A stretch of DNA of 64,000 nucleotides from Mimachlamys varia (Eukaryota; Mollusca; Bivalvia; Pectinida; Pectinidae): positions 27,458,201 through 27,522,200 of the forward strand of contig OX392527.1 of the NCBI GenBank assembly GCA_947623455.1, given 5' to 3'. The notes beneath the pieces were generated by a model, which saw nothing but the letters and a program-made list of their open reading frames with translations, had not been told where the DNA came from and ran no database searches. Below, piece by piece: positions 18,801 to 63,215 of the stretch (position 1 is its first letter; every line of letters begins with the position of its first letter). The position numbers were made by a program, and so were the translations under genes.

Positions 18801-21582
18801 TAGTGAAACAGTGGTGTAACATTAGTGTAACAGTGGTGTAACAGTGATGTAACAGTAGTGTTACAGTAATGTAACAGTGGTGTAACATTGGTGTGTCAGT
18901 AGTGTAACAGTGGTGTAACAGTGGTGTAACAGTGGTGTAACAGTAGTGTAACAGTGGTGTAACATTGGTGTTACAGTAGAGTAACAGTAGTGTAACAGTA
19001 GTGTAACAGTGGCGTTACAGTAGTGTAACAGTGGTGTTACAGTAGTGTAACAGTGGTGTTACAGTGGTGTAACAGTGGTGTAACAGTGGTGTAACATTGG
19101 TGTAACAGTAGTGTAACAGTGGTGTTACAGTAGTGTAACAGTGGTGTAACAGTGGTGTAACAGTAGTGTAACACTGGTGTTACAGTGGTGTAACAGTGCT
19201 GTAACAGTGCTGTAACATTGGTGTAACAGTGATGGAACAGTAATGTAACAGTGGTGTAACAGTGGTGTAACAGTAGTGTTACAGTAATGTAACAGTGGTG
19301 TAACAGTGGTGTAACAGTAGTGTAACAGTGGTGTAACAGTAGTGTTACAGTGGTGCAACAGTGGTGTAACATTGGTGTTACAGTAGTGTAACAGTGGTGT
19401 TACAGTAGTGTAACAGTGGTGTTACAGTGGTGTAACAGTGGTGTTACAATGGTGTTACAGTGGTGTTAGAGTAGTGTGACAGCAGTGTTACAGTGGTGTT
19501 ACAGTGGTGTCACAGTGGTGTTACAGTGGTGTTACAGTGGTGTTACAGTGGTGTTACAATGGTGTTACAGTGGTGTTACAGTGGTGTTACAGTGGTGTTA
19601 GAGTAGTGTAACAGCAGGGTTACAGTGGTGTTACAGTGGTGTCACAGTGGTGTTACAGTGGTGTTACAGTGGTGTAACAGTGGTGTTACAATGGTGTTAC
19701 AGTGGTGTTACAGTGGTGTTACAGTGGTGTGACAGTGGTGTCACAGTGGTGTAACAGTGGTGTTACTGTGGTGTTACAGTGGTGTCACAGCAGTGTTACA
19801 GTGGTGTTACAGTGGTGTCACAGTGGTGTTACAGTGGTGTAACAGTGATGTTACAGTGGTGTCACAGTGGTGTCACAGCAGTGTTACAGTAGTGGAACAT
19901 TGGTGTTACAGTAGTGTAACAGTGGTGTAACAGTGGTGTAACATTGGCGTAACAGTGGTGTAACAGTGGTGTAACATTGGCGTAACAGTGGTGTAACAGT
20001 GGTGTAACATTGGTGTGTCAGTAGTGTAACAGTGGTGTTACAGTGGTGTAACAGTGGTGTAACAGTGATGTTACAGTGGTGTAACAGTAGTGTAACAGTG
20101 GTGTAACAGTGGTGTAACAGTGGTGTAACAGTGGTGTAACAGTAGTGTAACAGTGGTGTAACAGTGGTGTAACAGTGATGTTATGGTAGTGTAACAGTGG
20201 TGTTACAGTGGTGTTACAATGGTGTTACAGTGGTGTTATGGTAGTGTAACAGTGGTGTAACAGTGGTGTAACAGTGGTGTAACAGTGGTGTTACAGTAGT
20301 GTAACAGTGGTGTAACAGTGGTGTTACAGTAGTGTAACAGTGGTGTAACAGTGGTGTTACAGTGGTGTAACAGTGGTGTAACATTGGTGTTACAGTGGTG
20401 TAACAGTGGTGTAACATTGGTGTAACAGTGATGTAACAGTGGTGTTACAATGGTGTAACATTGGTGTAACAGTAGTGTAACAGTGGTGTAACAGTGGTGT
20501 AACAGTGGTGTAACAGTGGTGTAACGGAGGTGTAACAGTAGTGAAACAGTGGTGTAACATTAGTGTAACAGTGGTGTAACAGTGGTGTAACAGTAGTGTT
20601 ACAGTAATGTAACAGTGGTGTAACATTGGTGTGTCAGTAGTGTAACAGTGGTGTAACAGTGGTGTAACAGTGGTGTAACAGTAGTGTAACAGTGGTGTAA
20701 CATTGGTGTTACAGTAGAGTAACAGTAGTGTAACAGTAGTGTAACAGTGGCGTTACAGTAGTGTAACAGTGGTGTTACAGTAGTGTAACAGTGGTGTTAC
20801 AGTGGTGTAACAGTGGTGTAACAGTGGTGTAACAGTGGTGTAACAGTGGTGTAACAGTAGTGTAACAGTGGTGTTACAGTAGTGTAACAGTGGTGTAACA
20901 GTGGTGTAACAGTAGTGTAACACTGGTGTTACAGTGGTGTAACAGTGCTGTAACAGTGCTGTAACATTGGTGTAACAGTGATGTAACAGTAATGTAACAG
21001 TGGTGTAACAGTGGTGTAACAGTGATGTAACAGTAGTGTTACAGTAATGTAACACTGGTGTTACAGTGGTGTAACAGTGCTGTAACATTGGTGTAACAGT
21101 GATGTAACAGTAATGTAACAGTGGTGTAACAGTGGTGTAACAGTAGTGTTACAGTAATGTAACACTGGTGTTACAGTGGTGTAACAGTGCTGTAACATTG
21201 GTGTAACAGTGATGTAACAGTAATGTAACAGTGGTGTAACAGTGGTGTAACAGTGGTGTAACAGTAGTGTAACAGTGGTGTAACAGTGATGTAACAGTAA
21301 TGTAACAGTGGTGTAACAGTGGTGTAACATTGGTGTTACAGTAGTGTAACAGTGGTGTTACAGTAGTGTAACAGTGGTATAACATTGGTGTAACATTAGT
21401 GTCACAGTGGTGTAACAGTGGTGTAACAGTGGTGTTACAGTAGTGTTACAGTGGTGTTACAGTGGTGTTACAGTGGTCTTATATTCGTGTAACAGTGGTG
21501 TTACAGTGGTGTAACAGTGGTGTAACAGTGGTGTAACAGTGGTGTTATAGTAGTGTAACAGTTGTGTTACATTGTACATTGG
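12826..21582. repeat. 8.75-kb satellite of an 11-bp unit with higher-order repeats
   Basis: Almost the whole interval is a head-to-tail array of the unit GTGGTGTWACA (W = A or T; common variants GTAGTG, GTGTCACA, GTGATG, ACATTGGTG), roughly 790 copies. Rare variants mark longer duplications. TAATGGTGATG occurs at about 15253 and 15374 (121 apart, eleven units) and again at about 18158 and 18279, some 2.9 kb later with the same internal spacing. The variant CACAGCAGTG following TTACTGTGG occurs near 13657, 14205, 14460, 16813 and 19763. The - strand reading of the unit has no stop in any frame, so the long frames reading LLHHCYTTVTP are products of the repeat, not genes. Confidence 0.97.
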
Positions 21583-27290: not shown

Positions 27291-28214
27291 CTACAGATAT
27301 ACTGAGGTTAACCTGATTTCTACCTGTCATACCAATATACAAGACGCCTGTATCGCTCACCTGGATATAAAAGAAACCTTGGAAAATCATTTTTATTACG
27401 TTCAACTATTTCTAAATATTGGCTCTTTTTATCAGCAACATTTGCCCCTCACAGGTCCCTCTTTCTGCCCTATAAAGGAAACACTCTATTTGGGGAAAAA
27501 CACACTTTTTAATGAACAGAAGAAAGATTTCGAAATTTAAACATAAAATTCCAATATCGGGCACTACTTGTTTGCATCCTGAGGAAATGAACCATAGAAA
27601 ACAAGATAATTCAACGAATTACAGTCCCCCACCGGGTTGTTATCTCGAGATCCAATAGCAATGAGTGTGAATCTCGAGATGCAATAAGGTCATGTATTTT
27701 CTTCAATGTATTGAAAGGTGAAGATGTAGTTTACAGAGACCCGCTTCTATACAGGAACCATCCCATTCTCACTAAATACATGTACACTGTAGGTATACTC
27801 TATAAATGATCTCTATATAAAGGACACAAGTCTATGAAGGACACCTTTAGTTTTTCTATTGGGTATCCTTTATAGACAGGTTTTACTGCAATAGACATGA
27901 AATTGTAATAATAATAACAAGATGTTGTTTGTTATGCTTACATTGAATTCAACAGTACTGTATATTGATTAAATGGTGATCTGAGAAGAACACAGGTTTG
28001 TTTGTCACTGGGAATAATTTGGATGAGAAGACCAAATCAAGAATTCCTCCAAGGCAATGGGTAGGCGTGGTCAGTTGTTGGTGAAGTTTACAAGATTTTT
28101 GAAGGCTGTCCATCTTTGCGAAGTCCATGTTGAAATCTCCAACAACAAGAATGTTTGTACACTTATGTAACTTTGCTTGTGTTGTGCATAGCTTGAATAA
28201 CTGTCGAAATAAAT

Positions 28215-29672
28215 GTCACAGTGACCCAGTTTTGGTACACGACACACCGTCTTCCCACGGGGAACCATACTACCAAGTATTAAGTTCTAGTGCTTTATAG
28301 TGTAGGAGATAGAGCCCGGACAAGGTATTTGTGTAACGTAGGTCAGAGGTCAAAATATTGGTCACTGTGACCCGGTTTTGTTACGCGACACACCGCCTTC
28401 CCATAGGGAACTATACTACCAAGTACAAAGTTATAATCCTTAATAGTGTAGGAGATAGAGCCCGGACAAACTTTTACTTTAATGTAGGTCAGAGGTCAAA
28501 ATATAGCAAAATAAAGGTCACAGTGACCCAGTTTTGGTACGCGACACACCGCCTTCCCACAGAGAACTATACTACCAAGTATAAAGTTCTAATCCTTAAT
28601 AGTGTAGGAGATAGAACCTGGACAAATTTTTCTTTCTTTAATGTAGGTCAGAGGTCAAAATATAGGTCACAGTGACCCAGTTTTGGTACGCGACACACCG
28701 CCTTCCCACGGGGAACCATACTACCAAGTATTAAGTTCTAGTGCTTTATAGTGTAGGAGATAGAGCCCGGACAAGCTTTTTCTTTAATGTAGGTCAGAGG
28801 TCAAAATATAGGTCACAGTGACCCGGTTTTTGAACGCGACACACCGCCTTCCCACAAGGAACCATACTACCAAGTATTAAGTTCTAGTCCTTTATAGTGT
28901 AGGAGATAGAGCCCGGACAAACTTTTACTTTAATGTAGGTCAGAGGTCAAAATATAGCAAAATAAAGGTCACAGTGACCCGGTTTTGGTACGCGACACAC
29001 CGCCTTCCCACAAGGAACCATACTACCAAGTATTAAGTTCTAGTCCTTTATAGTGTAGGAGATAGAGCCCGGACAAACTTTTACTTTAATGTAGGTCAGA
29101 GGTAAAAAAATAGCAAAATATAGGTCACATTGACCCGGTTTTTGTACGCGACACACTGCCTTCCCACAGAGAACAATACTACTAAGTATTAAGTTCTAGC
29201 GCTTTATAGTGTAGGAGATAGAGCCCGGACAAGCTTTTTCTTTAATGTAGGTCAGAGGTCAAAATATAGGTCACTGTGACCCGGTTTTTGTACGCGACAC
29301 ACCGCCTTCCCACAAGGAACCATACTACCAAGTATTAAGTTCTAGTGCTTTATAGTGTAGGAGATAGAGCCCGGACAAGCTTTTTCTTTAATGTAGGTCA
29401 GAGGTCAAAATATAGGTCACTGTGACCCGGTTTTTGTATGCGACACACCGCCTTCCCACAAGGAACAATACTACTAAGTATTAAGTTTTAGTGCTTTATA
29501 GTGTAGGAGATAGAGCCCGGACAAACTTTTTCTTTAATGTAGGTCAGAGGTCAAAATATAGGTCACAGTGACCCGGTTTTTGTATGCGACACACCGCCTT
29601 CCCACAGGGAACCCACACACTTAGTATGAATTTCCAGTGTCTTATAGTATGGGAGATAGAGCCCGGACAAAT
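28215..29672 (+). repeat. Tandem core repeats of element 1, about ten copies
   Basis: Each unit begins at GGTCACAGTGACCC (itself an inverted GGTCAC/GTGACC palindrome). It runs through CGCGACACACCGCCTTCCCAC, ACTACCAAGTATTAAGTTCTA, GTGTAGGAGATAGAGCCCGG and ends GTAGGTCAGAGGTCAAAATA. Starts are near 28216, 28361, 28516, 28663, 28811, 28967, 29122, 29271, 29417 and 29566. Spacing alternates between about 148 and 156 because some units carry an extra AGCAAAATA insert. The last unit is the most diverged. Confidence 0.9.
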
Positions 29673-33851: not shown

Positions 33852-33942
33852 TCATTTTAACAGATTTTCATGGTATTCTGGCGAGGAAGTCTCCGGAAAC
33901 AGCTTTTCAATGAGATGATCTAGAAATGAACACATGAAATTC
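33852..33942 (-). CDS. SNX19: SNX19 exon 10, C-terminus and stop
   Basis: After TTTTTTTTCAG the exon reads NFMCSFLDHLIEKLFPETSS and PEYHENLLK, then TGA (residues 1068-1097). It completes the R codon left by exon 9 and continues the nexin C terminal helix (vertebrate HLIYCLGDIILEFL). The 91 bases keep frame exactly. The exon sits 1.9 kb downstream of exon 9 because of the element in intron 9. Confidence 0.9.
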
Positions 33943-36900
33943 CTGAAAAAAAATCCGGAAGAATAATTAGGTGCAACATCTACAAGCAAATATATGCATG
34001 TTCATATACGACATTTAGGGTACGGCTTAATGCAGATAATAACAAGTGCTAATTGTAATGGGGTACCATTACAGATGTCCCCCAAACTACCCCTTTGGTC
34101 GGAACTGATGAGCCCAATGAACTCACAATGGAAATATAGCTGACACCCCATATATCAGCGGTCATGTTAAAGAATTAGGAAACGGAGGTTACGACAATGT
34201 CCGTGGTGTCCTACTACAGTTATATATAAAATTTCATTGAAATCGGACAATATATAAATTTCGACCAATCAGAAGCCAGGAAATAGCGGCCATGTTGACG
34301 AATCACGAAACGGAGGTTACGACAATGTCCGTGGTGTCCTACTACAGTTATATATAAAATTTCATTGAAATCGGACAATATATAAATTTCGACCAATCAG
34401 AAGCCAGGAAATAGCGGCCATGTTGACGAATCACGAAACGGAGGTTACAACAATGTTGTTTGTGTAATACTACACATATATATTAAATTTCATTGAAATC
34501 GGACAATATATAAATTTCGACCAATCAGAAGCCAGGAAATAGCGGCCATGTTGACGAATCATGAAACGGATGTGACGACAATGTTGTTGGTGTAATACTA
34601 CACATATATATTAAAGGACTATATATGGTTTGGGCCTTTTTTGGCCCCCAAATTATCAAATTTTGAAGCAGATTATTGAACTCTCAAATTGATGTATTTC
34701 AAATATGGAGTACATCGCTGATAAAACTGAAACGATAATTATTTGTTGTTTCAACTCTGGTTGTCATGGAAACCATCTAAAATATGCATAAATTAGGGAA
34801 ATTTGACCATTTAGTCAATTTTGGCCACTTTTTGGATAGTTTTTCTATTAGAAACTATTGAGCGCATTCTTGAACAAACTTAATATCAAATGAGAATATG
34901 TGGGCACTTATACCACATCTTTAGGAGAAATATAAACTTTGTTCAAGAATGCTCTCTATAGTAGCTGTGTGAAAATCTATGTAAAATTAACCAAAATAGA
35001 CCAAATATTTACATTTGCATAATTTATGCATATTTCGGATGGTTACCATGGCAACCATAGCATAAATAACAAATAAACATTATTACAAATGCATGATGGA
35101 TGTAATCTATATTTGAAATAATATTATTTGAGTGTTCAATAATGAAATTTAAAATTTGATGGATTTGGGGGCCAAAAACAGGCAAAACCATATATAGTCC
35201 TTTCATTGAAATCAGACAATATATAAATTTCGACCAATCAGAGGCCTCCATTTTCGTTTCGATGGCAACCAAACTTTACGAAAATGTTACCATGTTATTC
35301 AGCATCCCTTAAAACACCCATGTACCAATTTTTACTGAAATCGGAGACTGAATTTTGAAAACCGGAAATTAGCTCTGGCGGCCATCTTGGACTTCCGGTC
35401 GCGAAAAAACAACCCGTTTTCACACACCCCGCCCGTAATGAGTATGTGTGTGAAGTTTCGTGAAGATCCGTCCAGTAGTTTTTGAGAAAACGGTCGGAAA
35501 CCTCCGCGGCGGAAGAAAGTGGAAGAAACAAGAATAATAATAATAATAAGAAACCGAGCAAAAACAATATGTCCCCCCACTTCGTTTGGGGGACATAATA
35601 AACAGCATCTATTAACAATGAAGCCCCTGGGTTCCCTCTCCTACACCTACAAATCCTAGAATATTATGAATTGTAATTTAACCATGTTGCTAGCTTCGAA
35701 TCTATTACTGAAAGTGACTATAAAACTAATTAATTTTATGTCTAATTGTTGATATTGATAGAGAGAGACAATAATAATGCCTGGGTCCATTGTATATCTG
35801 ATCAGATCCTATTAAATTATCTATGGTTCAGAGGCTGGCATTTGGAGGTAAATGTATGTTACCTGTTCAGTTTCTGGTGTTCCATAGACTCTATGATCTC
35901 GTCTATACTGAACTGGTAGTCCTCTGATCCTACAAGCTGTTTCAGAATGTCTGCAACAAACAAAACTCACACTCAGATCAGTTAAATCAGTTAATATCAA
36001 AAAATCAATATTGATCTTATCAATTTGTTTGTTACATTTGCAATTTATCTACTGTTGGGAGATGGCTTAAAATAAGACCAAACTCTTGTTGTCAAATCCC
36101 TGTATATTAAAATATAGTATAAATTGACCTATGTATCATACATAATTGGTAATAAAACAAAAATCTAGCTGATGTTTTAGTGAATATTATTGCATATTGT
36201 ATAACAATGGCTTTTTGAAATTAACTGATTTCATACAATACAGCGATTGTTGGTATATTCCACATTTTTGAGTTTCGAAAAACCTTTTAAATCATCAATT
36301 TAGTCTTAATTACAGATTGTAGCAAGGTACATATAATGTACATATATGTTTTTAAACATATTGGTGTTGTATAGTATTAAGGTCTGTGAAAATGGGGATA
36401 GCACAGTGTTTTTTTGTGTCAGTAAAACTAAAATTAGAAAATACCGAAGCGTTACCAAAATCATAATCCGAACTCAAAATTGATTAACATAGGGGCAAAA
36501 TATGAACAAAGGAAAGATTTACATGGAGATCGTTGTAAAAGTACAACAGAATAAGACCAGTGGTTTCGGAAGAGTAAGCGTCTTCTGCTTCATCGACGAC
36601 ATCCGCCATGTAAATCCAAGCAAAACAAAACTGGCAATTAGGACATGACATTTGGTTAAAACTTTTCAGATCTACCGTCTGAAGTTCAAACAAACTTTCA
36701 TCTTCCAATTGACATTATAGCCATTCAAAACAACATACTTTCACCAAAATAAAGCATATTTACAAAATTACTTCTCTTTGTGAGAGAACATATAATTACC
36801 CGGAAAGAACTCTGCCAAGCACCTCCTAGCCTGCTCCTTAGTGGCTGCCTTCTGTTTGTCTGTTTTCACCATCCTTCCCTCCAGGGACAACTGTCCATTG

Positions 36901-39900
36901 GGCCAGAGTGTTTCCCGCAGCGTTCTGATGTAAAACACACACATCTTCTCAGATGTCAGGGTATCCAACTCCATCATCAGAAACCTACAGGATGTCAAAG
37001 ATTACAACAAAACTATAGCACATGTCAAAAACAAGACTCGAAATGGGCCTGCATCACTCACCTGGAATTAGTCTGTTACTATGAATGCCATGCAAGTGAT
37101 TCAATGGACACGTTAAAAAGAGTTTAACATTCTGACACCTGGGAGCATGAAAGTATATCAAGAGTAATTGTATTCACGTAGTTCAAGGAACCTTCCAACC
37201 AAATATGTTTCTAGTCCTTTAGGTATTGACATATTTGACCCCTGTTATCTTGAAATTAGGTCAAAGTTACTTTCTTTCGTAAAAATAGTTCTGCTTCTCC
37301 CAAGAAAGCTACCATCCACATATCATGTGTTGCGGCTTAATGGTATATTTCAAATGAACTACCATCTACCTGTGACTTTGAAAATAAGTCAAAGATGTCT
37401 TTTTTTTCTTTTTGCAAACTTGTTTGGCTCCTTCAAATAAAGCTTCAAGCCAATATAATGTCTATAGGTCTTTCGGAATTTTAGAAGGATTTCATTGAAT
37501 GTTTAACAGGTGTTTGGTTAGACTGACTGGTGAGGGGCAGTACCAGCCAGGTGTTTAGTTTAGACTGACCTGTGAAGGGCTGTACTAGTCAGGTGTTTAG
37601 TTAAACTCACCTGTGACCGGCAGTACCAGCCAGGTGTTTAGTTAGACTCACCTGTGAAGGGCAGTACCAGCCAGGTGTTTAGTTAGACTCACCTGTGAAG
37701 GGCTGTACCAGCCAGGTGTTTAGTTAGACTCACCTGTGAAGGGCTGTACCAGCCAGGTGTTTAGTTAGACTCACCTGTGAAGGGCTGTACCAGCCAGGTG
37801 TTTAGTTAGACTCACCTGTGAAGGGCTGTACTAGTCAGGTGTTTAGTTAAACTCACCTGTGAAGGGCTGTACTAGTCAGGTGTTTAGTTAAACTCACCTG
37901 TGACCGGCGGTACCAGCCAAATGTTTTGTTAAACTCACCTGTTAAGGGCAGTACTAGTCAGGTGTTTAGTTAAACTCACCTGTGAAGGGCAGTACCAGCC
38001 AGGTGTTTAGTTAGACTGACCTGTGGAGGGCTGTCCCAGTCAGGTGTTTAGTTAGACTGACCTGTGAAGGGCTGTACCAGCCAGGTGTTTAGTTAGACTG
38101 ACCTGTGAAGGGTAGTACCAGTCAGGTGTTTAGTTAGACTGACCTGTGAAGGGCAGTACCAGCCAGGTGTTTAGTTAGACTGACCTGTGAAGGGCTGTAC
38201 CAGCCAGGTGTTTAGTTAGACTGACCTGTGAAGGGTAGTACCAGCCAGGTGTTTAGTTAGACTGACCTGTGAAGGGCAGTACCAGCCAGGTGTTTAGTTA
38301 GACTGACCTGTGAAGGGCAGTACCGGCCAGGTGTTTAGTTAGACTGACCTGTGAAGGGCAGTACCGGCCAGGTGTTTAGTTAGACTGACCTGTGAAGGGC
38401 AGTACCGGCCAGGTGTTTAGTTAGACTGACCTGTGAAGGGCAGTACCGGCCAGGTGTTTAGTTAGACTGACCTGTGAAGGGCAGTACCGGCCAGGTGTTT
38501 AGTTAGACTGACCTGTGAAGGGTAGTACCAGCCAGGTGTTTAGTTAGACTGACCTGTGAAGGGTAGTACCAGCCAGGTGTTTAGTTAGACTGACCTGTGA
38601 AGGGTAGTACCAGCCAGGTGTTTAGTTAGACTGACCTGTGAAGGGTAGCACCAGTCAGGTGTTTAGTTAGACTCACCTGTGAAGGGTAGTACCAGCCAGG
38701 TGTTTAGTTAGACTGACCTGTGAAGGGCAGTACCGGCCAGGTGTTTAGTTAGACTGACCTGTGAAGGGCAGTACCGGCCAGGTGTTTAGTTAGACTCACC
38801 TGTGAAGGGCTGTACCAGCCAGGTGTTTAGTTAGACTGACCTGTGAAGGGTAGTACCAGCCAGGTGTTTAGTTAGACTGACCTGTGAAGGGTAGTACCAG
38901 CCAGGTGTTTAGTTAGACTGACTGGTGAAGGGCAGTACCAGCCAGGTGTTTAGTTAGACTGACCAGTGAAGGGCAGTACCAGCCAGGTGTTTAGTTAGAC
39001 TGACTGGTGAAGGGCAGTACCAGCCAGGTGTTTAGTTAGACTGACTGGTGAAGGGCAATACCAGCCAGGTGTTTAGTAAGACTGACCTGTAAAGGGCTGT
39101 ACTAGTCAGGTGTTTAGTTAGACTGACTGGTGAAGGGCTGTACCAGCCAGGTGTTTAGTTAGACTGGCCTGTGAAGGGCAGTACCAGCCAGGTGTTTAGT
39201 TAGACTGACCTGTGAAGGGCAGTACCAGCCAGGTGTTTAGTTAGACTGACCTGTGAAGGGCTGTCCCAGCCAGGTGTTTAGTTAGACTGGCCTGTGAAGG
39301 GCAGTACCAGCCAGGTGTTTAACTAGACTGACCGGTGAAGGGCTGTCCCAGCCAGGTGTTTAGTTAGACTGACCTGTGAAGTGCAGTACCGGCCAGGTGT
39401 TCAGTTAGACTCACCTGTGAAGGGCTGTCCCAGCCAGGTGTTTAGTTAGACTGACCTGTGAAGGGCAGTACCGGCCAGGTGTTTAGTTAGACTCACCTGT
39501 GAAGGGCTGTCCCAGCCAGGTGTTTAGTTAGACTCACCTGTGAAGGGCAGTAACAGCCAGGTGTTTAGTTAGACTCACCTGTGAAGGGTAGTACCAGCCA
39601 GGTGTTTAGTTAGACTCACCTGTGAAGGGCAGTACCAGCCAGGTATGTAGTTAGACTGACCTGTGAAGGGCTGTCCCAGCCAGGTGTTTAGTTAGACTCA
39701 CCTGTGAAGGGCTGTCCCAGCCAGGTGTTTTGTTAGACTCACCTGTGAAGGGTAGTACCAGTCAAGTGGTTAGTTAGACTGGCCTGTGAAGGCCTGTACC
39801 AGTCTGGTGTTTAGTTAGACTGACCTGTGAAGGGCAGTACCAGCCAGGTGTTTAGTTAGACTCACCTGTGAAGGGCTGTCCCAGCCAGGTGTTTAGTTAG

Positions 39901-42900
39901 ACTGACCTTTGAAGGGCTGTCCCAGCCAGGTGTTTAGTTAGACTCACCTGTGAAGGGCTGTACCAGCCAGGTGTTTAGTTAGACTGACCTGTGAAGGGCA
40001 GTACCAGCCAGGTGTTTAGTTAGACTCACCTGTGAAGGGCTGTACCAGCCAGGTGTTTAGTTAGACTGACCTATGAAGGGTAGTACCAGCCAGGTGTTTA
40101 GTTAGACTCACCTGTGAAGGGCAGTACCAGCCAGGTGTTTAGTTAGACTGACCTGTGAAGGGTAGTACCGGCCAGGTGTTTAGTTAGACTGACTGGTGAA
40201 GGGCAGAACCAGCCAGGTGTTTAGTTAGACTCACCTGTGAAGGGCAGTACCAGCCAGGTGTTTAGTTAGACTCACCTGTGAAGGGCAGTACCAGCCAGGT
40301 GTTTAGTTAGACTGACCTGTGAAGGGTAGTACCAGCCAGGTGTTTAGTTAGACTGACTTGTGAAGGGCTGTCCCAGCCAGGTGTTTAGTTAGACTGACCT
40401 GTGAAGGGCAGTACCAGCCAGGTGTTTAGTTAGACTCACCTGTGAAGGGCTGTCCCAGCCAGGTGTTTAGTTAGACTGACCTGTGAAGGGCTGTCCCAGC
40501 CAGGTGTTTAGTGAGACTGACCTGTGAAGGGCTGTCCCAGCCAGGTGTTTAGTTAGACTCACCTGTGAAGGGCAGTACCGGCCAGGTGTTTAGTTAGACT
40601 GACCTGTGAAGGGTAGTACCAGCCAGGTGTTTAGTTAGACTCACCTGTGAAGGGTAGTACCAGCCAGGTGTTTAGTTAGACTGACTGGTGAAGGGCTGTC
40701 CCAGACAGGTGTTTAGTTAGACTCACCTGTGAAGGGCAGTACCAGCCAGGTATTTAGTTAGATTGACCCGTGAAGGGCAGTACCAGCCAGGTTTTTAGTT
40801 AGACTGACTGGTGAAGGGCTGTCCCAGACAGGTGTTTAGTTAGACTCACCTGTGAAGGGCAGTACCAGCCAGGTATTTAGTTAGACTGACCTGTGAAGGG
40901 TAGTACCAGCCAGGTGTTTAGTTAGACTGACTGGTGAAGGGCTGTCCCAGCCAGGTGTTTAGTTAGACTCACCTGTGAAGGGCTGTCCCAGCCAGATGTT
41001 TTGTTAGACTGACTACTCGATCTCTAGTCACCCAACAGTCCCGACTCTGTAAAGCCTGTATGGCCAAGTCAATGACAGCCTCGGCCAAAGTAATCTCATC
41101 TGCATTGTTAGGATGGCCATCTAAAAATTAAAAAGGCACATATTAGCTCTCTCATATTCAGTAAATTTCAGTTTATTCACAGGTCTTGCAAAAAGCAAAT
41201 CAAGTACATTTCAGGTATTACTTTGATGACCTCCCATATCATAAAGTATCAATTTGTTTTTAAAAATATCTGTTAAAGAATTCTTGATCCTTTGAAATGT
41301 GTGTCTCAGATCTAATAGTCCTTTAAATTCTTTAATATTTATAACTGACATCTTCATCCGTTTTTAATTCACACTAAATCAGTGTATATCCGGTAATTTT
41401 TACGCTTCGCTATATTAGCATGTATATAAATATTACACAGTCATAATACTTTAAACATCATTAGTAATACTTGTGTTTACGGTAACTATACCAGCATTCA
41501 TTAATTACCTCCTTTTCATAAATTTGTATCCAAATACTACTGTCTGTGATAACTTATATATATGTGCTGCTGTCTTTTCCTTTCTTTTTTAGCTTTTAAC
41601 TTATCAAAGCTGAAGTTTCTAATTTCTGTGACACATGCTCACTGTTTTACTCATTTTGCTTTACCTGCATGTTGTTTTCCATGTCAGGTAAAGCAAAATG
41701 ACAGTCATGTTATTTATTAGTTGTATCCTTTAGTTTGTCGCAATAACAACATTACTGTGCTAATGTTTATTGTTTTAAATATGCGATTTTAAATAAAAAT
41801 TCTTGTTTCTTGTATCTCTTGTCCTGTTGATCAAGATCTCTGACAACCTTTTTTTTATTTGGTCTAATTAATCTAATATCCATAGCATACTACCTACCTG
41901 TGGCTCCTTCTCCACCTGTTGGGCTGGACTGTGCTGAGGGGTCAACTTGCTCATCTTCACACTTCAAGCCGTCCATCACAGTGTGTTTGATATCAGTTTG
42001 AACACCTGCATTCATTAATTCTTCTTTTAGTGATAAACTTGGTGTATCTATTCTGGAAGTAGACATGACTTCCTCCTCAGGACAAGAATGTTCACTCGTG
42101 GTGATCTCCATTTCCTCTGTGACTTCATAAGCCGATTCATCGGGCGATGGTGTTGTATGTGGTTCATGGGCCAGCTCTTCGTCCACATCACCAGTGCCGC
42201 TGTCAGCAGTGGGCGTGACTATACCCGTCACAGCCTCTTTACCCGAACCAACATCCTGTTGGCTTTGATCCTTATTTATAGGTGTGGTGGGACTTTCAAT
42301 GTCCAGGCAATCAGCATTGTCAAGCTTTCTCATGTAATGGTTCAATTTTCCTTGGAAGTTTGAAACCTAAGTGATTGAAATTGTTTAAATGCATGAAAAT
42401 AAGCAAAATTTCAATTCAATTATCCATCAATTGTTTTTCATATTAATCAATATCAAGTATACATTTGTTATTTCTTCTTCTATAAATAATATTTACATTT
42501 ATTACTAAATAAGCTACTGTTGAATTGATCCAGTAATCGCTATGTATTCTACAATCTACTAACTGTTTTAACTGCAGAACTTAGAAGATTCGGTTTTGAA
42601 GCAACTGTGTGTTTGTCAATTATTCTGTAAAATTTGGTTTTAACAATACATACTTTTGCCAATCACAATCATGAATGAATTAAATCTGACTCAATTAATC
42701 AGTTATGACATAACCACAGGAAATTGATTTGTTCTTCTAAAATGAAATGTCACTAACATAGGAAATTGCAATCATCTTAAACGTCTCTGTAAAATATTGG
42801 TCCTTTTGTCTTAAGTAAACACCATGTACCATGTCCATAAAATATGAACAACTTCTGCCCCGTAGAACTCAAGTTATAGCTATCAGAAGCTATGAAGACT

Positions 42901-45900
42901 AACTTCAATTCTGAATCATAAAAATACTATTTCCCCCTCTTTTAAGATTCAATGGAATCAGACAAAGAGCCATTGAGAAAATTGTTGGACAAACACACAG
43001 TTTTATATAATTGCTGTTATCTATTTTCAGAAATAATTTTCAATGGTTTCTTTTTTTTTTTGAAGATGAAGAGCATTCAATTGTGCTTAATTAAACTTTG
43101 TGAGTCTTGTGTGTGATCGACTTACCTTACTATCAGCACTGAAATCCACATTGATCAGGTCCAGGTCTTTCACTGGCTTTTCTTCGTCCTCTGACACATT
43201 CTCTTTTTTGCCTGGTAATTTTGGCAACACCTCTTGTGCCTTATTTGAAAGTTCTCCAATCTTATCAAATACATCTGACATGGTTTTCACAATCATCTGC
43301 AAATAAAAAAGAGGACCTTAATCAGATTGTCTTAATTATTTGTTTAGATTAAATTAAAATACCCTTAATTAGACACAATTCAGATATTATTTTCCAATAG
43401 TAGTATTAGAGGACTAATAATTAAATATAGCCTTTTTATCGTGAATTCACAACGGTTCAAAATCATGTGTACCACTTCCCTTCAAACATTGAATCATAAA
43501 CTGCTTTCAGATGCCCTTTATAGGCAATATGAATGCTCATTACATTTTAACCTGATCATAGAATAGACTACTTCTTGTAAAAAAAAAATCAAAAGAGATT
43601 CAAACCTAGTTTCCACTTTGTTGGTTTGCTTTCTGATCACAATTGTTTTAGTGCTTACTTTTGGTTCACATTATCATATTCTGAAATGCTGTTTCTTCCG
43701 TTTATATACTGACATTGCAAAGGAAATATAAATATCTTTTAATAGAAGATTTACCTTGTCTATTCTTGGCACTGACATTTCTGGTGCCTTCCTAACAAAT
43801 GCTATATGGCCATCCCCTTCATAAGCTAGGAACTCCTTCAGCTCTGATCCATTACAAATATCAAGCTTCTGGATCAATGACTACAAACAAAATAACGTTT
43901 TACAGCACTTTTTCAATAGTGAAATAAGGTGTCATTGTGGACTAAAGAGAGTTAAAAAACAGAACACCGGTATCGCACAATAGATCAGCAATTAACATTT
44001 CAACACCATACAAAGTTTTAAACTAATTTATGATGCAATAAATGGCATGTAATTAAAAATGCATGACATTTAACTGGAAATTTACTATAAGTAATTACCA
44101 GGCTTTAAAACATTGATTTCTTACTTTAAGGAATGTCTCTAGACTTTTCCTGCGACTCTCAACACTCCTCTTATCCATGTTTCCAAATGGTAGAGAAAGC
44201 CATCTCCTTGGCCCCTTCACATCTGTAGCAGTTAAAAACAAAATATTGATTTCAAATTATATAGCAATCAGGATATACCAACCTAATAATCACTGTGCAC
44301 TTACAAATACACAAAAGATGTGTGCTTAAAGGCCCAATTTACGTAACTTCAGGGAAATTTTCGTGATTCTGAAAAATTCTGAAAAAAAATCCAGTTGATA
44401 ACCATGCAAAAATAAGCCTAAAACGAAGTAAACCTGAGCGGTAACTAACAAGAAACTCTTGACAAAAAAATCCAAAGAATTGAAAATAATTCAGGTGGGG
44501 CCCACTTCAACAACAAACCGAAGGTAGAAGACGGTTCGAAGTAGACACATGTTTACAAATAGCGTGTTTCAAATTCTCCTGTACCGGTAACCGCGAAAGA
44601 ATTCATCTTGAATATTGCTGATATCAGTTAAGGACGCTCGACCCTACGTAATACACATTGAGTTTTGATTCTCGTTTTGTGGTGACGTGGCTTCCTATTT
44701 GTGTACCTGGAATTGGAAAACGGGGTATCAAATTCGTTCTACATGGTGATATGTCGCGATGTCAACAATGGCGAGATGAGAGGGGACGGTTCAAGTCTTC
44801 AACTCAAGATTACGAGCAAATAAAGTGTTATCACGACCACTCCTATTGCAAAACAACAACAAAAACAGATGTACACGATATCGACACATGGTCAAACACT
44901 GACAGCGACGGTAACAGTATAGAAACAGAATCGGAATGCAGGCCATAAGTACCGGTACAACTGGCCATGGTTTCTCAAACCGGAGAGAGAGTCGGCATGT
45001 GGTAAAATTATCCGTGTTGGCAGAACGTTTACACAAGGGCTGTGCCTGGTGTCATTATATATGCACTATTATGCTGTTGAAAATATAACACAGAACGCCG
45101 GTAGTTGTTATGTTCTAAAATGTTTTAGGCTTGTCGCATTCACAGTATATGTGTTATGTAAAAATACTACCCACTACAAAATTTCCTAATAGCATCAAGG
45201 GAGACAACATACCATAGACACAGTTTTACATCTAGTTTTCAATAAGTAGCATAAAAAGCTTGTCTGTGATATTTTGATTCGATTTTTTGCTTGTGCTTTA
45301 TGTAACTATACGGTATGTAAATAAATTGACTGTGAATAGTGAAATTTGTCCGCTAGATTTAAAATAATATAACACACTTGTTAAAATTGTTTTGTCCATT
45401 TTTCCACAAATAAAATATTTTTGATGTAACTATTTATTTCTTTTCTTTTATTTTATTGTATGTTTGTGATTTTCAACAACATTCACAAGAAAAAAAAATA
45501 GAAAAAACATTGAATTTTGAGAAAAATCATTTTTTGGTGTTTTTTACCAAAAATGAAACAAGTCATAGGAATGCTTAGATTTTCACAAAATCATCTCTAC
45601 CTGGTAGCATAATCAACATATGAAAGTTTTAAGGAAATCTAGCAGTTAATTGCGAAAGGGTCGAGCCTCCTTAATCTTAACTAAATCTATAACTATAATA
45701 ATTATACATTATTAGGCTTGATTTTCGCTTCAAGTTTTGCTGAAAGTTACGTATATTGGGCCTTTAATAAAACTATGTACATTAAAGTTTCCATGTGAAA
45801 TATTTTAGATTTTATAGGCAGATCAGTGAAGTAAGGATCTTATTGACAGGTTTAACTTAGCGCTCTCCATCTCTCTCGTTGATTTTACAAGCTTCCTTTG

Positions 45901-48805
45901 AAAAATTCATGTGATAATTTCTTTACACTATATAGCATCTCACTTAATGATAAATGTCATGTTCTGTTCAATGTACAATATAGAGTGATTACCTGGTGGG
46001 TAATATAGCCTGGCCTTAGTTTTACAGAACAACTTAAAATCCCTGTTCAATAGCTGTGGGATCTGTCCTATGTAGTATGTAATACCCTCACACTACTTAC
46101 ATGCACTTATTTGATCTGTTGATATTACTAACATATTAACAAGCAAAAGGATGTATCGCCATTGAACTTAGGAAAGTATTTTCCAATTTTTAATTTTCAT
46201 AAATTCCTAAATCAGTTGCCCCAGATATATATGGATATGAGACAAGGATTTTTTTTACAGTTAATACCTAAACTTAGAAAAAATTACAATATAACATTTA
46301 AATGTGTACTCTACCTGATAAGAAATAAAAAGGTTTTTCACTTACCTTTCAAACTTTTCCTGTAAGCTTCATTATCCTCCAATCGCGCCTGAAGGTTCAC
46401 AAACTCACGGAATCGCCTTTTTACACTTCTGGTGCGAAGCTCCACAGAGTTTGACTCTGTGCTGTACAAGGCATCATACTGAAAAGTATTGCGCATTTCC
46501 AAAACATCACAACTGTCATTCAAAGATAATGCTTTAATTTTTTTTTCAGCTTTGCATCAATATCTTATTAGGATTATGATCCACCACTTATATTTTAGCA
46601 CACAAGGAAAAACCAAATTTGATTCAAGTACAATTTAAAATGAATGGGACCTTGGAATTGCTTGATTATAAATATTCTAGGCATAACAGTCTGATGACAT
46701 ATAAAAAGGAAGGCAAGGTAATGGGATCCATTTCATATTCACCCAATTCTAGACAAAGTTATATATTAGTTACAAAAGATTAACAAAAGAACAAAACATC
46801 GTAAAAACAAGACTCAATTTCAACATCCACTTTCCCACAAGGTGATCAGTCAATAAAACTTTTGAGTATTCAAATTATGCTTTTTTGGACAAAGTGACGG
46901 AGTGCAAACCTACAATTATAATGTAATAACTAACTTTAGTCATACCAGTGGGAAATTTAATTTCAACAACAAATACAGTACATTTATTTTCATAGTTTGG
47001 CAATAGGTCGAAATACCAACCTGTATGTTGTACAGTGTATACTGTGTGGAACTTCTCATCTCCTGTCTCGTCTCTGTATCTATAATGGCTACCTCGACAA
47101 ACAACATACTGGGTGGTTCTAGCGGTTCTAGCTTTTCAATTTGGATTTCCTCACTATCCAGGTATATTTGTACTTTTGATGACATGTCTTCATCATCTGT
47201 AGCACTGCTCTCAGCACTGAAGTCTTCCGGGTCAGAGATCCCTGATGCTGAAACAATACCAAGGTCACTAGGACAACTACGGGCCAATGAAGATTGGCCT
47301 CTATCACAATATAAGGAGTTGCCATGGTCCCCATTTCCAACACTAAGCATGGAGCTTTCTTCACCATACTCATCTAATTGGTCTTTTCTCGGATTAGATA
47401 GATCCGCTCCACACAGAAAATTTTGCAAATCATGTCTGCTTGATGCTGAGCTTGACCTTCTCATGCCTAAATCTGACCTGTGTGAGCGATTCCCAGGTAG
47501 ATGATTCTCTGATGAACCGAGTCTGTTTTGATCTTGAATGTCAGTATTTTTCTGTTGGTCAGATAAGCATATTTCAACATCTTGCTGAACTGCATTTTGA
47601 TAGGCAGTGACTTTGGCACTTTCAAGATTTCTGTCCAACAGGCTTTCTGATATTTCATTGTCATCTACAGAGCATGACACCTTCTCATCAGAGAGTATCT
47701 TTATTATGCATTCATACAAAAAGTCAGAGTCTGACAGTAGCTCTATCACAGGTAAAAATATATTGCATGTAAAAATCTCAACAAAAAGTAGATATGAGGT
47801 ATTACAAAGGTGGAGATGATCAGAAAGAAGCTGGGACAGCAAAATTTGAACTATTGATCTGAAATATATAACCTCATTTTCCACTCCCCAAACTGCTGAA
47901 TGATAGGAAAACTTGATCTCAAAGGCATCTTCTACAGAGTTAATTCTACGCGAGGCATACAGATGTTGATTTGATGACAATCTACGCTGACTCAAGCGTC
48001 TTCGAGGCTGAGTTTTATATAGTGTGCGAGCTACTTGAAACATGCGGAGGTGCTGCCTATACTGCTGGAGAATGTCAGCAAATAAATTGTATGTATCAAG
48101 GTTTTGGAATCTTTTGCATAATTGAAGAAAGCATGTGTTGATAATGCCATGTGTGTCCTCAACTACAGAATCACTTGCAGAGTAGAATGTACAATACCAA
48201 GGTTCTACAAAGTCTTTAGAAACGAGGCATGAGAATAGCTGGACCTCGTCCGTCCACCTACATGTAACGATTTCATCGCTAGGCTTCCCAACTTCCTCGT
48301 GCATATTGTGGTCATCAGAGGGTTTCTGACCGACTTCCTCTTCCGAACCATTGGGTGCGTCTTTCCCAATAGAAAGGATGAGTTCAGCATTTTTAACAGT
48401 GTCCTCGTCATGCTCCTGTGCATCATGAAACTCCTCGTCTTTGGCCTCTTTCGGACCAGGGCCTTGCCAGCCTCCTGCAGTTGATCCAGGTTCATAGTTT
48501 ATTTTCAATAATTTTACGAGCCGAAATATATGTTTGAACAACGATTCATGTTTTGTTACAAAAAGCAAGATAGAAACACCAAATGAAAAATTTGTTTGCA
48601 CAGACGTCAGAACATGACATGCGACTACTGAGGCAATGACAGCCAAAACGTAAACAAACACAACTGTCAACAGACGGACATAAAAGATGGAAGCAAATCC
48701 AACAAACAGGGAAATTATCACTATCTTTTGGAAAGACGAGAATCTATTATGGTATCCATAGATATCTTTGATACGTCCCCAGGCCTTTACAATCTTTTCA
48801 TCCAT
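33852..48805 (-). CDS. SNX19: Sorting nexin 19, ten coding exons, complete
   Basis: The spliced product is 1,097 residues (human SNX19 is about 990). Order: hydrophobic membrane hairpin at about 25-70, PXA domain at about 185-363, Ser/acidic linker, PX domain at about 568-700, acidic linker, nexin C domain at about 935-1065. There is no RGS domain between PXA and PX, which separates SNX19 from SNX13/14/25. Diagnostic matches include RRFREFVNLQARLE, VKGPRRWLSLPFGNMD, GHIAFVRKAPE, PRIDK and ETLWPNGQL. All nine junctions have GT-AG ends and keep frame. The start ATG has A at -3 and G at +4, with an in-frame TGA 18 nt upstream. In vertebrates SNX19 is an ER protein whose PX domain contacts endolysosomes via PI3P; the same role here is inference. 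The introns carry an unusual transposon and repeat load. Confidence 0.93.
34170..35260 (+). repeat. 128-bp tandem core repeats of element 2
   Basis: The unit TTCATTGAAATCGGACAATA, then TTTCGACCAATCAGAAGCC, GCGGCCATGTTGACGAATCA and CGGAGGTTACGACAATGTC starts at 34233, 34361 and 34489 (period exactly 128). A fourth start follows the foldback insert near 35202. A truncated unit precedes the first. Confidence 0.9.
34616..35200. mobile_element. 585-bp foldback transposon nested in element 2
   Basis: The left end GGACTATATATGGTTTGGGC and right end AAAACCATATATAGTCC are inverted, and the similarity continues inward. GGCCCCCAAAT, ATGGAAACCATC, AATATGCATAAATTA and GCATTCTTGAACAAA all have inverted partners, so each arm is about 270 bp with a short centre. 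Removing it restores an uninterrupted 128-bp unit (ATTAAA joined to TTTCATTG). No target-site duplication is evident. There is no coding capacity. Confidence 0.8.
35863..35950 (-). CDS. SNX19: SNX19 exon 9, nexin C domain
   Basis: Residues 1039-1068, DILKQLVGSEDYQFSIDEII and ESMEHQKLNR, match the vertebrate segment ending LINR. The acceptor is GTTTGTTGCAG and the donor AACAG|GTAACAT, phase 2. Confidence 0.93.
36438..36617 (-). repeat. Retroelement 3' tail repeat, copy 3, in SNX19 intron 8
   Basis: Read on the - strand it has TTACATGGCGGATGTCGTCGA, GAAGACGCTTACTCTTCC and CACTGGTCTTATTCTG, the family of 6057-6233. It lies in the sense orientation of SNX19, between exons 8 and 9. Confidence 0.65.
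36800..36984 (-). CDS. SNX19: SNX19 exon 8, nexin C domain
   Basis: Residues 977-1039, FLMMELDTLTSEKMCVFYIR, then TLRETLWPNGQLSLEGR to CLAEFFPG. It aligns with vertebrate SNX19 around LLLLQESIWPGG. The acceptor is ATCCTGTAG and the donor CCGG|GTAATTA, phase 1. Confidence 0.95.
37508..41013 (-). repeat. 41-bp minisatellite made of the SNX19 exon 7 splice-donor region
   Basis: About 85 head-to-tail copies of a 41-bp unit, on the - strand CACCTGGCTGGTACTGCC, CTTCACAG, GTGAGTCTAACTAAA. The unit reproduces the exon 7 end (HLAGTALHR codons) and the intron 7 start. The copy at the exon edge extends to 41013 in coding sequence. I count roughly 30 units with CAG|GTGAGT, many with CAG|GTCAGT and some with CCAGTCAGT. 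The array makes up about 3.46 of the 3.99 kb of intron 7. Because 41 is not a multiple of three, units shift frame. Confidence 0.95.
40973..41120 (-). CDS. SNX19: SNX19 exon 7, start of nexin C domain
   Basis: Residues 928-977, DGHPNNADEITLAEAVIDLA through WVTRDRVVSL to TKHLAGTALHR, open the nexin C domain. The acceptor is AATTTTTAG. The donor is CACAG|GTGAGTC, phase 2. The last 35-40 coding bases are one divergent unit of the 41-bp minisatellite that fills the next intron. Reading past the donor gives AGG TGA, an immediate stop. Confidence 0.95.
41898..42366 (-). CDS. SNX19: SNX19 exon 6, acidic disordered linker
   Basis: Residues 772-928 run from VSNFQGKLNHYMRKLD to SSPTGGEGAT. They are rich in Glu, Asp, Ser, Thr and Pro and probably disordered. 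The acceptor is TCACTTAG and the donor CACAG|GTAGGTA, phase 1 (GAT codon split). Confidence 0.92.
43126..43296 (-). CDS. SNX19: SNX19 exon 5, linker
   Basis: It encodes residues 715-771, MIVKTMSDVFDKIGELSNKA to VDFSADSK, an amphipathic start followed by acidic, low-complexity linker. The acceptor is TTTGCAG and the donor AAG|GTAAGTC, phase 0. Confidence 0.92.
43755..43880 (-). CDS. SNX19: SNX19 exon 4, end of PX domain
   Basis: It encodes SLIQKLDICNGSELKEFLAY, then EGDGHIAFVRKAPEMSVPRI and DK (residues 673-714). The vertebrate counterpart reads IAFVKK and SRIDK. The acceptor is TTTGTAG and the donor AAG|GTAAATC, phase 0. Confidence 0.95.
44125..44222 (-). CDS. SNX19: SNX19 exon 3, PX domain
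   Basis: It encodes DVKGPRRWLSLPFGNMD, then SRRKSLETFLK (residues 640-672). The RRKSL segment provides the second basic patch typical of PX domains. The acceptor is TGCTACAG and the donor AAA|GTAAGA, phase 0. The exon has no G at its last base, a slightly weaker donor context. Confidence 0.93.
44330..45763 (-). mobile_element. TTAA-flanked MITE, copy B, split by an insertion, in SNX19 intron 2
   Basis: The ends AGGCCCAATTTACG and CGTATATTGGGCCT are flanked by TTAA (44326-44329 and 45764-45767). The body is the inverted form of copies A and C. It is interrupted between 44631 and 45671 by another TTAA element; joining the two outer parts restores the MITE sequence across ATCAG-TTAA-TCTTAAC. 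Confidence 0.85.
44632..45670. mobile_element. 1.04-kb TTAA element nested inside MITE copy B
   Basis: The ends GGACGCTCGACCCT and AGGGTCGAGCCTCC are imperfect inverted repeats. TTAA is duplicated on both sides (44628-44631 and 45671-45674), the piggyBac-type signature. Inside is one 96-codon frame at 44658-44948 (+) with a Cys/His-containing and acidic C-terminal half. I do not recognise it as a transposase, and the element is far too short to be autonomous. Confidence 0.75.
46346..46478 (-). CDS. SNX19: SNX19 exon 2, PX domain core
   Basis: It begins after CTTTTCAG and reads YDALYSTE, then KRRFREFVNLQARLE (residues 596-640). RRFREF at 616-621 carries the arginine expected to bind the 3-phosphate of PI3P. 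The donor is AAAG|GTAAGTG, phase 1. Confidence 0.95.
47021..48805 (-). CDS. SNX19: SNX19 exon 1 (residues 1-595)
   Basis: One very large exon encodes the membrane hairpin, the PXA domain (LVSKDFVEPWYCTFY at about 194; FVEIFTCNIFLPVIELLSDS at about 341), a Ser-rich linker and the first PX strands ending YTLYNIQ. The donor is CAG|GTTGGTA, phase 0. An internal stretch QPRRRLSQRRLSSNQ inside PXA is basic and looks like a loop insertion. Confidence 0.95.
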
Positions 48806-55396: not shown

Positions 55397-55620
55397 CTAG
55401 TATCTCCTAGCATTGTGATTCATTCCTATGTGAGTGTTCATTGGTTGAGCTGCATGCTGTCCTGTCATTAATCGCTGGCCTCCCATCACCATACCAGGCT
55501 GCTGCATATTGGTCATATACGTACTAGCACCCATGTTGGAGGAAAGTCCTGACGCAGACTGTGACCCACTTCCCCAGTGACTAGATTGGTGGGCGGCATT
55601 GCGAGAGGCCGGTACAACAC
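55397..55620 (-). CDS. SAFB: SAFB-like last coding exon
   Basis: Reads GVVPASRNAAHQSSHWGSGS through GASTYMTNMQQPGMVMGGQR to HIGMNHNARRY, then TAG. The tail is rich in Gly, Met, Gln and Ser and ends in the family's RRY. The acceptor is CTTGATAG. Confidence 0.9.
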
Positions 55621-58600
55621 CTATCAAGAAAAAAAGACCAGAAAATACAATTCCAGAATTAATATATAGATTGAGATTTAGTGTTTCAGCCCAATAATGC
55701 TTGAAAAATGAAGAAGCAATAAGAAATCAGAACAATGCAAAAAAAAATGTCTAACTCAATTAATAAACATGGCTAAAAGTCTATGTAAATGTGAAAATAA
55801 AATTACCTCTGTCCATTTTTCTTTCACCTCTGCCATCAAAAGAATTCCTCTGAGGTCGTCTGTCAACATCGCGGCCTCTTTCCCCGTCCCTGTATCGTCC
55901 TACATCACCATCACGTCCTCCTCGTACAGGGTCTCTATTGCGATCACTGAATCTAAAATGTTCACAACAACTGCATGACTTTTTGATGTTACCAACAGAA
56001 AAGAGTAGCAAAGACAGTTATGCAATGCATAACGATTCTTATTGGAAACATTTGATATTTTCTCAGTAGGTCTGGATCAAACAGTGTAAACTATCGGACA
56101 GTAAATGGACCGTCACACAAATAACAAAAAATATGTGCTGATATTCATGTGTCTGAAATTTGCTATTTCAACAGATGATTAGTCAAAGGAAAGAAAACAG
56201 AAACCATGGTCTACAAATTTTTCACATCAGTTTTGTCTACAGTGATTTTATTTTTAATAGGAGGTAGAAAGAAAACCATACCTATCAAATCTATCTTCGT
56301 TTCTATCATCTCTCAGAGAAGAGCGTGAAGCTTCCCTGTCCCGTATGTCTGACCTGCCAAAGTCCTTTCTGTTGTAACGATCAGTCCTTCTGTTGTCGTA
56401 GGCATCCCTATCAAGTCTGGTGTCGTCTAACCGGTTGGGACGTAGGTCTCGGGAGTCTAGCTCTCTGTAGCTGTCAACAAGGAATATATTCAACTTTTCT
56501 TATTTCACCTGTTCATATGACATTTTTTTAATGTTTCGATTATGTAACAGCTAGCGTAAAGTTTCTCTTGAAATCACAAACTGCTGATGTTCAATATATG
56601 AACACCATTAAAAACTACATGTAAAAACATTCTTCCTTATCTACACAATGTCCGTTTAGAGGAGCATCAATATAACCCAGTTGTTGATTATGTTAACATA
56701 CATACCGATCTCTTTGAAAAGAATCTGACATCAAAGATCTTTTGTTGTCCAACCATTCATCTTCAATAGATCTTTCAAACATTCGCTTCAATGCTCTTCT
56801 ATCCCTTTCTTCTTCCAACCTATTCAATAAACATTTACACATGTTTATGACACAAATTTCACCACAATTATCAATCTAAAAGTCAACAGTATGAAAAAAA
56901 ATAATCTATTATGCGAGTTGTTCTTGTTACTGACTAAAACTGTAATCGGGTATAAATGTAAGACCTGGTGATTTTGTTAAAATATAGTTTAATGCGAGTG
57001 ATTGCTAATATAATACAGAAATATTTGTATTTATTTTTCATTGCCATGCCTGTACATATGAAATTTAGTAGTTTACCTACTGTACTTCTGTAAGAAGATG
57101 ACTTTGGGTCTTACCACATGTATTTGCACATGATACTATTAAGACTAATGATTGCTATAATTTATAGAAGTTCAGCAACTTCCTTTATAATCATTGTCTT
57201 TTGATGAGGGACACCATGAAGAGCAAACAATTTTTATGTCTTTTTTTTATCATCCTGTGATGTGGCTTTTCCGGGTTTCACAAACATTCTTAAGTATGTT
57301 CTCATTCATTGGTGAGAACCACCAATGAAAAATGTTGTCACATTATATAACTGCATTTCTGATTGGTTGTTCCCAAATTTGAGAATGAGAACGTACTTAA
57401 GAATTTTTTGTGAAACTGGGTCTGAACTGTGTCAGTCGAAGTCTGACACTTCATCATTAGTGTTAAGTTGTATTAAAATAATTGAAATGTGGGGTCACCT
57501 TAAAAGTATGCCGGGACAAGTAATACACTACCAACATCAGAATGTACAGTGTATAAGTAGCTGGGCACCTGCTGGTTGTTCTAATGTTTATTTTTGGTAC
57601 AAATGCTAAAACAGATTATGAAGATAATTCCATCTACTATATTGTATGTTCAAAACAACAGGTATTACTGTGGTAAGTGTTTTCTGATCTGAATCTTATA
57701 TCAGAACAGTTTGTGCTAATAACATGTTGAGCTTGATGTCTTACTGATTCAATTAAGTATCTTACTGTTGGAGTTTTATCAGACTTTGTGCCATCTTTTT
57801 ATATATTTTTGTTCGGTAACAAACATCAGCCATGTACAGTTATCGTTTGTCATTGGGCTTAATAGAATATTTGCAAAATACTTTTTAAAAATGTCATTGA
57901 ATGGTAAGATTGTCATGCTACTAAACCAAGGGCTGAAACTGTAACCCAACTGCCATGACGATGAACTTACCGTCTAAATAAAGAGTTTTTACCTTAGGCG
58001 TTCCAGTCGGAGCCTTTCTGTTCTCTCCCTGTCTATCTTGTCTCTCTCTAACTGTTCTAATCTCAGAAATTCTCGTCTCTGGGCAGCAAGTCTTTCTCTC
58101 TCCAGCCTCTGCCTCTCTCGTCTAAGTATTCAATAACAAAAGCAATGACTGATGACGCTCATTATACATTCTGGTATGAACTTTCATAAAACATATATAA
58201 TTATTACAATTCAGATGTACCTTGTAATTACTATTCTGATATAAATAAAACACTGAAGTCCCCTTCAGATTCTTCCCCTATAGATCATTTATGTTCTAGG
58301 TTTTGCATTATGATGAAGTATCTTTTTTGCCTTGATTTTTTCGGGCTTGACAAATGAAATTCAAATTCATCAACACAATCGGAGGAAAAATTTTGGAATG
58401 ACAGAATCACAATATATTCCTCATATAAATGACAACATTCATTGCAATATCCCACCTAAGTTTTTCCCGTTCTCTGCTTAATTTCAGTGACTCCATCCTT
58501 TGTCTGATGTGAATATCTTTTTGGCGTTTCTTCTCCTGCTGTATCTCTTTCCTCTTCAGATCTTCTTGTAATGACTTTCTCTTTTTCAGTTTTTCCCATT

Positions 58601-63037: not shown

Positions 63038-63215
63038 CTACAAAAAAATTAAAGTTTCACCAGGGAGAAACAAATTTTAATCAGGTTTTTAACAAGATTT
63101 CCAAACAAAATAAATTTACTGATGCTTATGTGTTTTGTTTGTTTGTTTGTCTCGCCTTACTTGCTCTGCCAATATCAGAGAGCTGATACTGATAGAGAAT
63201 ATAATACAGTGTAGT

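Follow-up and report, generated by a model that had tools for sequence, protein, structure and literature searches.

Minisatellite-like tandem duplications of exon–intron boundaries have been described in amphioxus as 'mirages', and are reported for Adh3 and for the globin genes BflGb6 and BflGb9 (excerpts of PMC3087553, citing Canestro 2002). In those excerpts many mirages carry AG/GT signals, regular splicing is reported to be undisturbed and the boundary units to escape homogenization; the units are 10-72 base pairs (bp) long in Adh3 and 150-160 bp in BflGb6, where three or six copies are present depending on the haplotype. The minisatellite of human IFI6 (G1P3, 6-16) 'provides multiple splice donor sites' (title of Turri 1995), with two downstream repeat units serving as donors (PMC4526556, excerpt), and tandem repeats in UBC and VCX3A have a repeated AG/GT junction that acts as donor or acceptor, so that added units can be spliced out (PMC10809524, excerpt). 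Tandem duplication of AGGT is also a route to introns, in which tandem exonic copies join as AG/GT and are read as an intron (PMC4974935, excerpt), and in human paralogues repeats at exon–intron boundaries may form novel introns (PMC2812944, excerpt). Here we describe a 41 bp minisatellite at the boundary of exon 7 and intron 7 of SNX19 in the bivalve Mimachlamys varia (Pectinidae), within 64,000 nucleotides of contig OX392527.1 (assembly GCA_947623455.1, forward-strand positions 27,458,201 to 27,522,200); this whole stretch is the window, and all coordinates below are positions in it.

From the arrangement of the sequence we think it probable that the array is a set of 83 in-register copies of the exon end, likely born by mispairing and then enlarged by local unequal exchange, whose removal by splicing is predicted to be silent. 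It works like an amphioxus mirage, and is most likely a passenger rather than a regulator. The original prediction knew of no described splice-donor satellite of this kind, a claim of novelty that has to be withdrawn, as the amphioxus mirages (PMC3087553, excerpts) and IFI6 (title of Turri 1995) precede it. No mollusc case of an exon–intron boundary minisatellite was found in the open-licence literature searched, a scallop-directed search included, and within the scope of these searches four things are new: a mollusc as host, the number of copies, a unit that is exonic throughout and the geometry of dual sites. The gene and the parts of the array are laid out as follows.

33852..48805, minus strand: SNX19 coding region, 10 predicted exons, with PXA, PX and Nexin_C.
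40973..41120, minus strand: predicted coding exon 7, 148 nucleotides, acceptor TTTTAG and donor CAG/GTGAGT, placed by the open gene model and scallop homologues.
40973..41013, minus strand: unit 0, the terminal coding unit of the array, encoding VSLTKHLAGTALHR with its last codon split.
40967..40972, minus strand: predicted true donor GTGAGT of intron 7, the first six bases of unit 1, with a predicted U1 duplex of -12.2 kcal/mol.
37570..40972, minus strand: units 1-83, intronic 41 bp copies in perfect register, 42 distinct sequences.
37507..37569, minus strand: units 84-85, the irregular far end of the array, with one inserted base and likeness ending after CACCTG.
36985..37506, minus strand: the 522 bp of intron 7 that the array does not occupy, including the CTGTAG acceptor of exon 8 and one extra CAGGTGAGT at 37056-37064.
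36800..36984, minus strand: predicted coding exon 8, with a Nexin_C match (PF08628).

Tandem Repeats Finder reports a single 41 bp array at 37507-41013, with 85.5 copies and 92% matches, in agreement with the roughly 85 copies of a 41 bp donor-region repeat originally predicted. Dividing the minus strand into 41-base units from 41013 onwards keeps units 0-83 in perfect register without an insertion or deletion, and unit 0 is the coding end of exon 7, so that the real exon end is the terminal unit of the array, also as predicted. Of the 3,988 bp of intron 7, 3,466 bp belong to the array. Tandem arrays of this length are frequently misassembled, and the array could have been inflated or collapsed in the assembly; we regard this as highly improbable, as the 83 units comprise 42 distinct sequences with variants in blocks, unlike the product of one copied unit.

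The whole unit is coding sequence. In the exon it reads GTC AGT CTA ACA AAA CAT CTG GCT GGG ACA GCC CTT CAC AG, that is VSLTKHLAGTALH followed by a split arginine codon, and the exon peptide VSLTKHLAGTALHR takes in the HLAGTALHR previously recognised. The consensus of units 1-83 is identical to the exon at 37 of 41 positions, and the differences (positions 12, 18, 27 and 30) are all at synonymous third positions; individual units share on average 88% identity with the exon (39/41 in the best), and 38 of the 83 still encode exactly VSLTKHLAGTALHR in the exon frame. The last 41 bases of exon 7 match the following intron at 39/41 positions, compared with 19-22/41 for the other eight exons and their following introns and a best match of 22/41 elsewhere in the window, and a chance resemblance is therefore excluded. 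The unit had been described as the exon end, the donor and some following bases; the exon end is indeed present, but the rest, including the GTSAGTCTAAC part, likewise has a coding counterpart, and the unit is wholly exonic.

This bears on the comparison with mirages. The SNX19 array resembles them in that its tandem repeats sit at an exon–intron boundary and one of them is the authentic exon end (unit 0, with units 1-83 in register), but BflGb6 mirage units span intron and exon whereas the SNX19 unit is coding throughout, and it differs further in its 83 in-register copies and in lying in a mollusc SNX19. We therefore describe the array as working like a mirage and do not file it as a member, noting that a unit of exon plus intron is the arrangement described for BflGb6 and may not hold for every mirage.

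The host gene lies on the minus strand, and its coding region was modelled from homology, open frames and splice signals as ten predicted exons with nine GT-AG introns and an open frame of 1097 amino acids. PXA (E 5.6e-24, in the long first exon) and Nexin_C (PF08628, E 3.3e-11, in exon 8 beyond the array) both score above their family cut-offs, and the PX match is divided between two exons, each part being below cut-off when the exons are scanned singly. PXA, PX and Nexin_C together with full-length homologues place the gene in SNX19. The model is 85% identical to protein P0001 over 1117 positions, and its nearest homologues are scallop proteins, from Mizuhopecten yessoensis (85% identity), Pecten maximus (74%), Ylistrum balloti (72%) and Argopecten irradians (68%). 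A comparison of the C-terminal region with solved structures gave no convincing match. Exon 7 reads in frame across the intron into exon 8 (R-FLMMELDTLTSEK). Intron 9 of the same gene contains a separate array at 34157-34615, with 3.6 copies of a 128 bp unit.

It was predicted originally that the array was built from the exon end, and this direction is upheld by the relatives of the gene. In an alignment of the query with 61 SNX19 relatives (in the second search scoring was limited to the 7993 candidates with the most words in common), the 14 exon-end residues have aligned residues in 60 of the 61, P0035 lacking the region and P0060 having one gap. Conservation of the segment is good among scallops, with VSLTKHLAGTALHR in three of four and VNLTKHLAGTALHK in Ylistrum. 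Oysters (ISLAKHMLGTAVSR in Saccostrea) and rodents (..FGTLVQR) have a recognisable version, both retaining the GT..R pattern; the likeness is weaker in clams and gastropods, and few of the residues recur in spiders. The coding segment thus predates scallops and, the differences between exon and consensus being all synonymous, we take the exon to have come first and the array to be derived from it. Had four changes fallen at random, all would be synonymous with a probability of 0.0046 for one transition and three transversions, or 0.0051 when matched by exact base change (15/41 transitions and 19/82 transversions in the unit are synonymous). The reverse order, in which the exon end was taken over from a pre-existing repeat, could draw on the full unit being common to exon and array and on the two exon-specific bases in unit 75, but the alignment of the exon-end residues in 60 of 61 relatives, rodents included, and the synonymity of every difference leave it close to refuted. 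The 41 bp unit has no exact match among viral contigs.

The edge of the array at the exon suggests how it began. Upstream of the exonic hexamer GTCAGT the exon matches the array at only 5/20 positions (compared with the end of unit 3) or 7/20 (the end of unit 1), counted by eye. Likeness thus ends at this hexamer, which resembles the donor 41 bp further on, and the distance from the array edge to the donor is exactly one unit, matching what mispairing predicts. We infer that the array was born when this hexamer mispaired with the GTGAGT of the donor; an event of this kind would yield a unit of exactly this composition and both C and G at its third position, where 52 of the 83 unit starts have C and 31 have G. 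Units of the GTC type would trace to the exonic Val-Ser codons and those of the GTG type to the original donor. The array then likely grew by local unequal exchange, which is supported by 11 pairs of identical neighbouring units compared with 3.0 expected in shuffles (none of 5000 shuffles reaches 11). Just two heterogeneous two-unit blocks recur exactly as higher-order repeats, and similarity to the exon shows no trend from one end of the array to the other (Spearman -0.08, P 0.48).

The array also holds a series of donor-like sites. Scored from -3 to +6, the 83 unit starts comprise 31 CAGGTGAGT (CAG/GTGAGT, the true donor included), 35 CAGGTCAGT (CAG/GTCAGT) and 17 others (eight CCAGTCAGT, three CAGGCCAGT and six single variants), close to the thirty or so GTGAGT and many GTCAGT units anticipated. 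Outside the array CAGGTGAGT occurs once in the window, on the minus strand in intron 7 (37056-37064), about 70 bp upstream of exon 8, and on the plus strand there is no copy in the whole window. Over nine bases the 30 decoys do not differ from the true donor, and they have the same predicted U1 pairing of -12.2 kcal/mol, within the -4.5 to -13.4 kcal/mol spanned by the nine SNX19 donors. Outside the array the gene strand has 655 GT sites, counting those of exons, introns and real donors alike, and only two of these pair as well, one of them the intron 6 donor (-13.4 kcal/mol).

Such a concentration of equal donors would suit a splicing rheostat, in which downstream donors are partly used, kept units lead to a stop and the length of the array sets SNX19 output; this would be a variation on IFI6, where two downstream repeat units act as donors (PMC4526556, excerpt). 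Reading on past the end of exon 7 gives AGG TGA, a stop at the second codon, and use of a distal donor with units kept would lead to this immediate stop whichever donor is chosen. Every distal donor would then give one product, leaving little to tune except loss, and the amphioxus mirages are reported without disturbance of regular splicing (PMC3087553, excerpts); we consider a rheostat unlikely.

The 31 strong and 35 weaker U1-like sites within 3.4 kilobases (kb) could alternatively form a U1 platform that protects the transcript against premature cleavage and polyadenylation, or act as a U1 decoy. However, the gene strand of intron 7 (the other SNX19 introns were not checked) contains neither AATAAA nor ATTAAA, which weakens the idea of a polyadenylation shield for this intron; moreover, just 31 of the 83 unit starts are strong and the motif shows no sign of maintenance, and a role of this type appears very unlikely. 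The true donor is predicted to form a CAGGUG:CACCUG hairpin within unit 1 (40951-40975, minus strand; -7.8 kcal/mol), compared with -7.1 kcal/mol for one GTG unit and -4.2 kcal/mol for one GTC unit of variant sequence; CACCTG of the array corresponds to CATCTG in the exon, and the units thus carry a donor-like site together with its near complement. Masking of donors by RNA structure was considered and rejected, as the fold of four units together is no more stable than that of shuffled sequence (z -1.28; 23 of 200 shuffles are as good). Among the splice motifs, intron 7 polyadenylation signals and RNA folding examined, there is no positive sign of a function for the array.

The unit junctions have features of acceptors as well as donors. 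Of 82 internal junctions 67 read AG/GT, and all of these have a YTNAY motif 31-35 nucleotides upstream at a fixed place in the unit; 44 of the 67 have no AG between this motif and the junction, and 30 also have the strong donor GTGAGT. The pyrimidine fraction before the AG averages 0.65 in the units (0.56-0.75), compared with 0.50-0.88 for eight SNX19 acceptors (that of exon 9 read one base off) and 0.48 for 44 other AGGT sites in the gene; the units carry a branch-like motif and a pyrimidine-rich CACAG, but the tract is short and interrupted. They look like recursive or dual-specific splice sites: a Drosophila recursive site is an acceptor followed directly by a donor, (Y)nNCAG/GTAAGT (PMC5126111, excerpt), and Duan et al. 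report that dual-specific sites are in use even where one side is weak.

Splicing of exon 7 onto an AG/GT of the array would rebuild the same CAG/GT and leave the mature junction unchanged. Silent removal is predicted since most unit junctions could serve as either splice end and restore the same donor, and the array would be tolerated because splicing within it goes unseen. The 30 extra exact donor copies are likely harmless for the same reason. We envisage that the first donor is used in the mature mRNA, that stepwise splicing may take place inside the array and that transcripts keeping a unit would be lost, with selection favouring the first donor and indifferent to events within the array. 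Such a self-silencing geometry is plausible.

The stronger proposal is that intron 7 is a self-erasing splicing ladder, in which up to 67 dual-specific sites stand in tandem and each packs a branch motif, an acceptor and a donor into 41 nucleotides of what was once coding sequence; it is rather doubtful. If it is true, the spliceosome would take out the array by random steps, always arriving at the same exon junction, and the gene's own codons would have become a self-propagating satellite that splices itself out.

The array differs from IFI6 in gene and unit (the human unit is 12 bp), and distal IFI6 units give different isoforms whereas kept SNX19 units would give an immediate stop. UBC and VCX3A share with it a repeated AG/GT junction with potential donor or acceptor roles, but as excerpted the stretch removed from them has repeat junctions at both ends and the UBC units are coding, whereas in SNX19 the intron has, in addition, an ordinary acceptor that lies beyond the array. 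It is like repeat-born introns in that tandem exonic copies join as AG/GT; however, the array most likely enlarged a pre-existing intron, complete with its acceptor, and did not create a new one.

Several observations weigh against this account of a mispaired exon end that splices out silently. The test of synonymity is post hoc and has only four changes. Exon-specific bases occur at two positions (12 and 18) in unit 75 and at one in unit 31, which calls for conversion or a more complex order of events, and the far edge of the array lies about 21 bp inside a unit, a position not expected from mispairing in its simplest form. Only 16 of the 30 strong internal junctions are free of an inner AG that could disturb acceptor use. 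Finally, 12 of the 83 units do not end in AG (eight end in CCA, and one each in CAA, CGG, CCG and CTG) and three start with GC, so there is no sign that the splice motifs are maintained.

Other parts of the window are repetitive too. An 8.7 kb array at 12827-21571 has about 795 copies of an 11 bp unit (GTGGTGTTACA / GTGGTGTAACA), whose minus strand contains long open frames of a repeated HHCYTTVTPLL-like peptide, and 9.8 copies of a 146 bp unit lie at 28203-29671. On the minus strand at about 55400-63040 there are open frames resembling a second gene, with R/E-rich segments and, in one of six frames of the window that were scanned, an RRM match (PF00076, E 6.7e-05); it resembles a SAFB-like scaffold attachment factor.

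The SNX19 array offers two natural experiments, one in how the spliceosome settles on a single donor when 31 sites within 3.4 kb agree in all nine bases, and one in how an array of decoy splice sites can spread within a gene that is conserved. With it the range of mirage-like minisatellites, in the literature seen an amphioxus feature, would reach molluscs, and it suggests a mechanism for their birth, in which a donor-like coding hexamer mispairs with the donor and each new copy automatically brings a splice site with it. The dual-site geometry perhaps also gives the new copies a means of removal.

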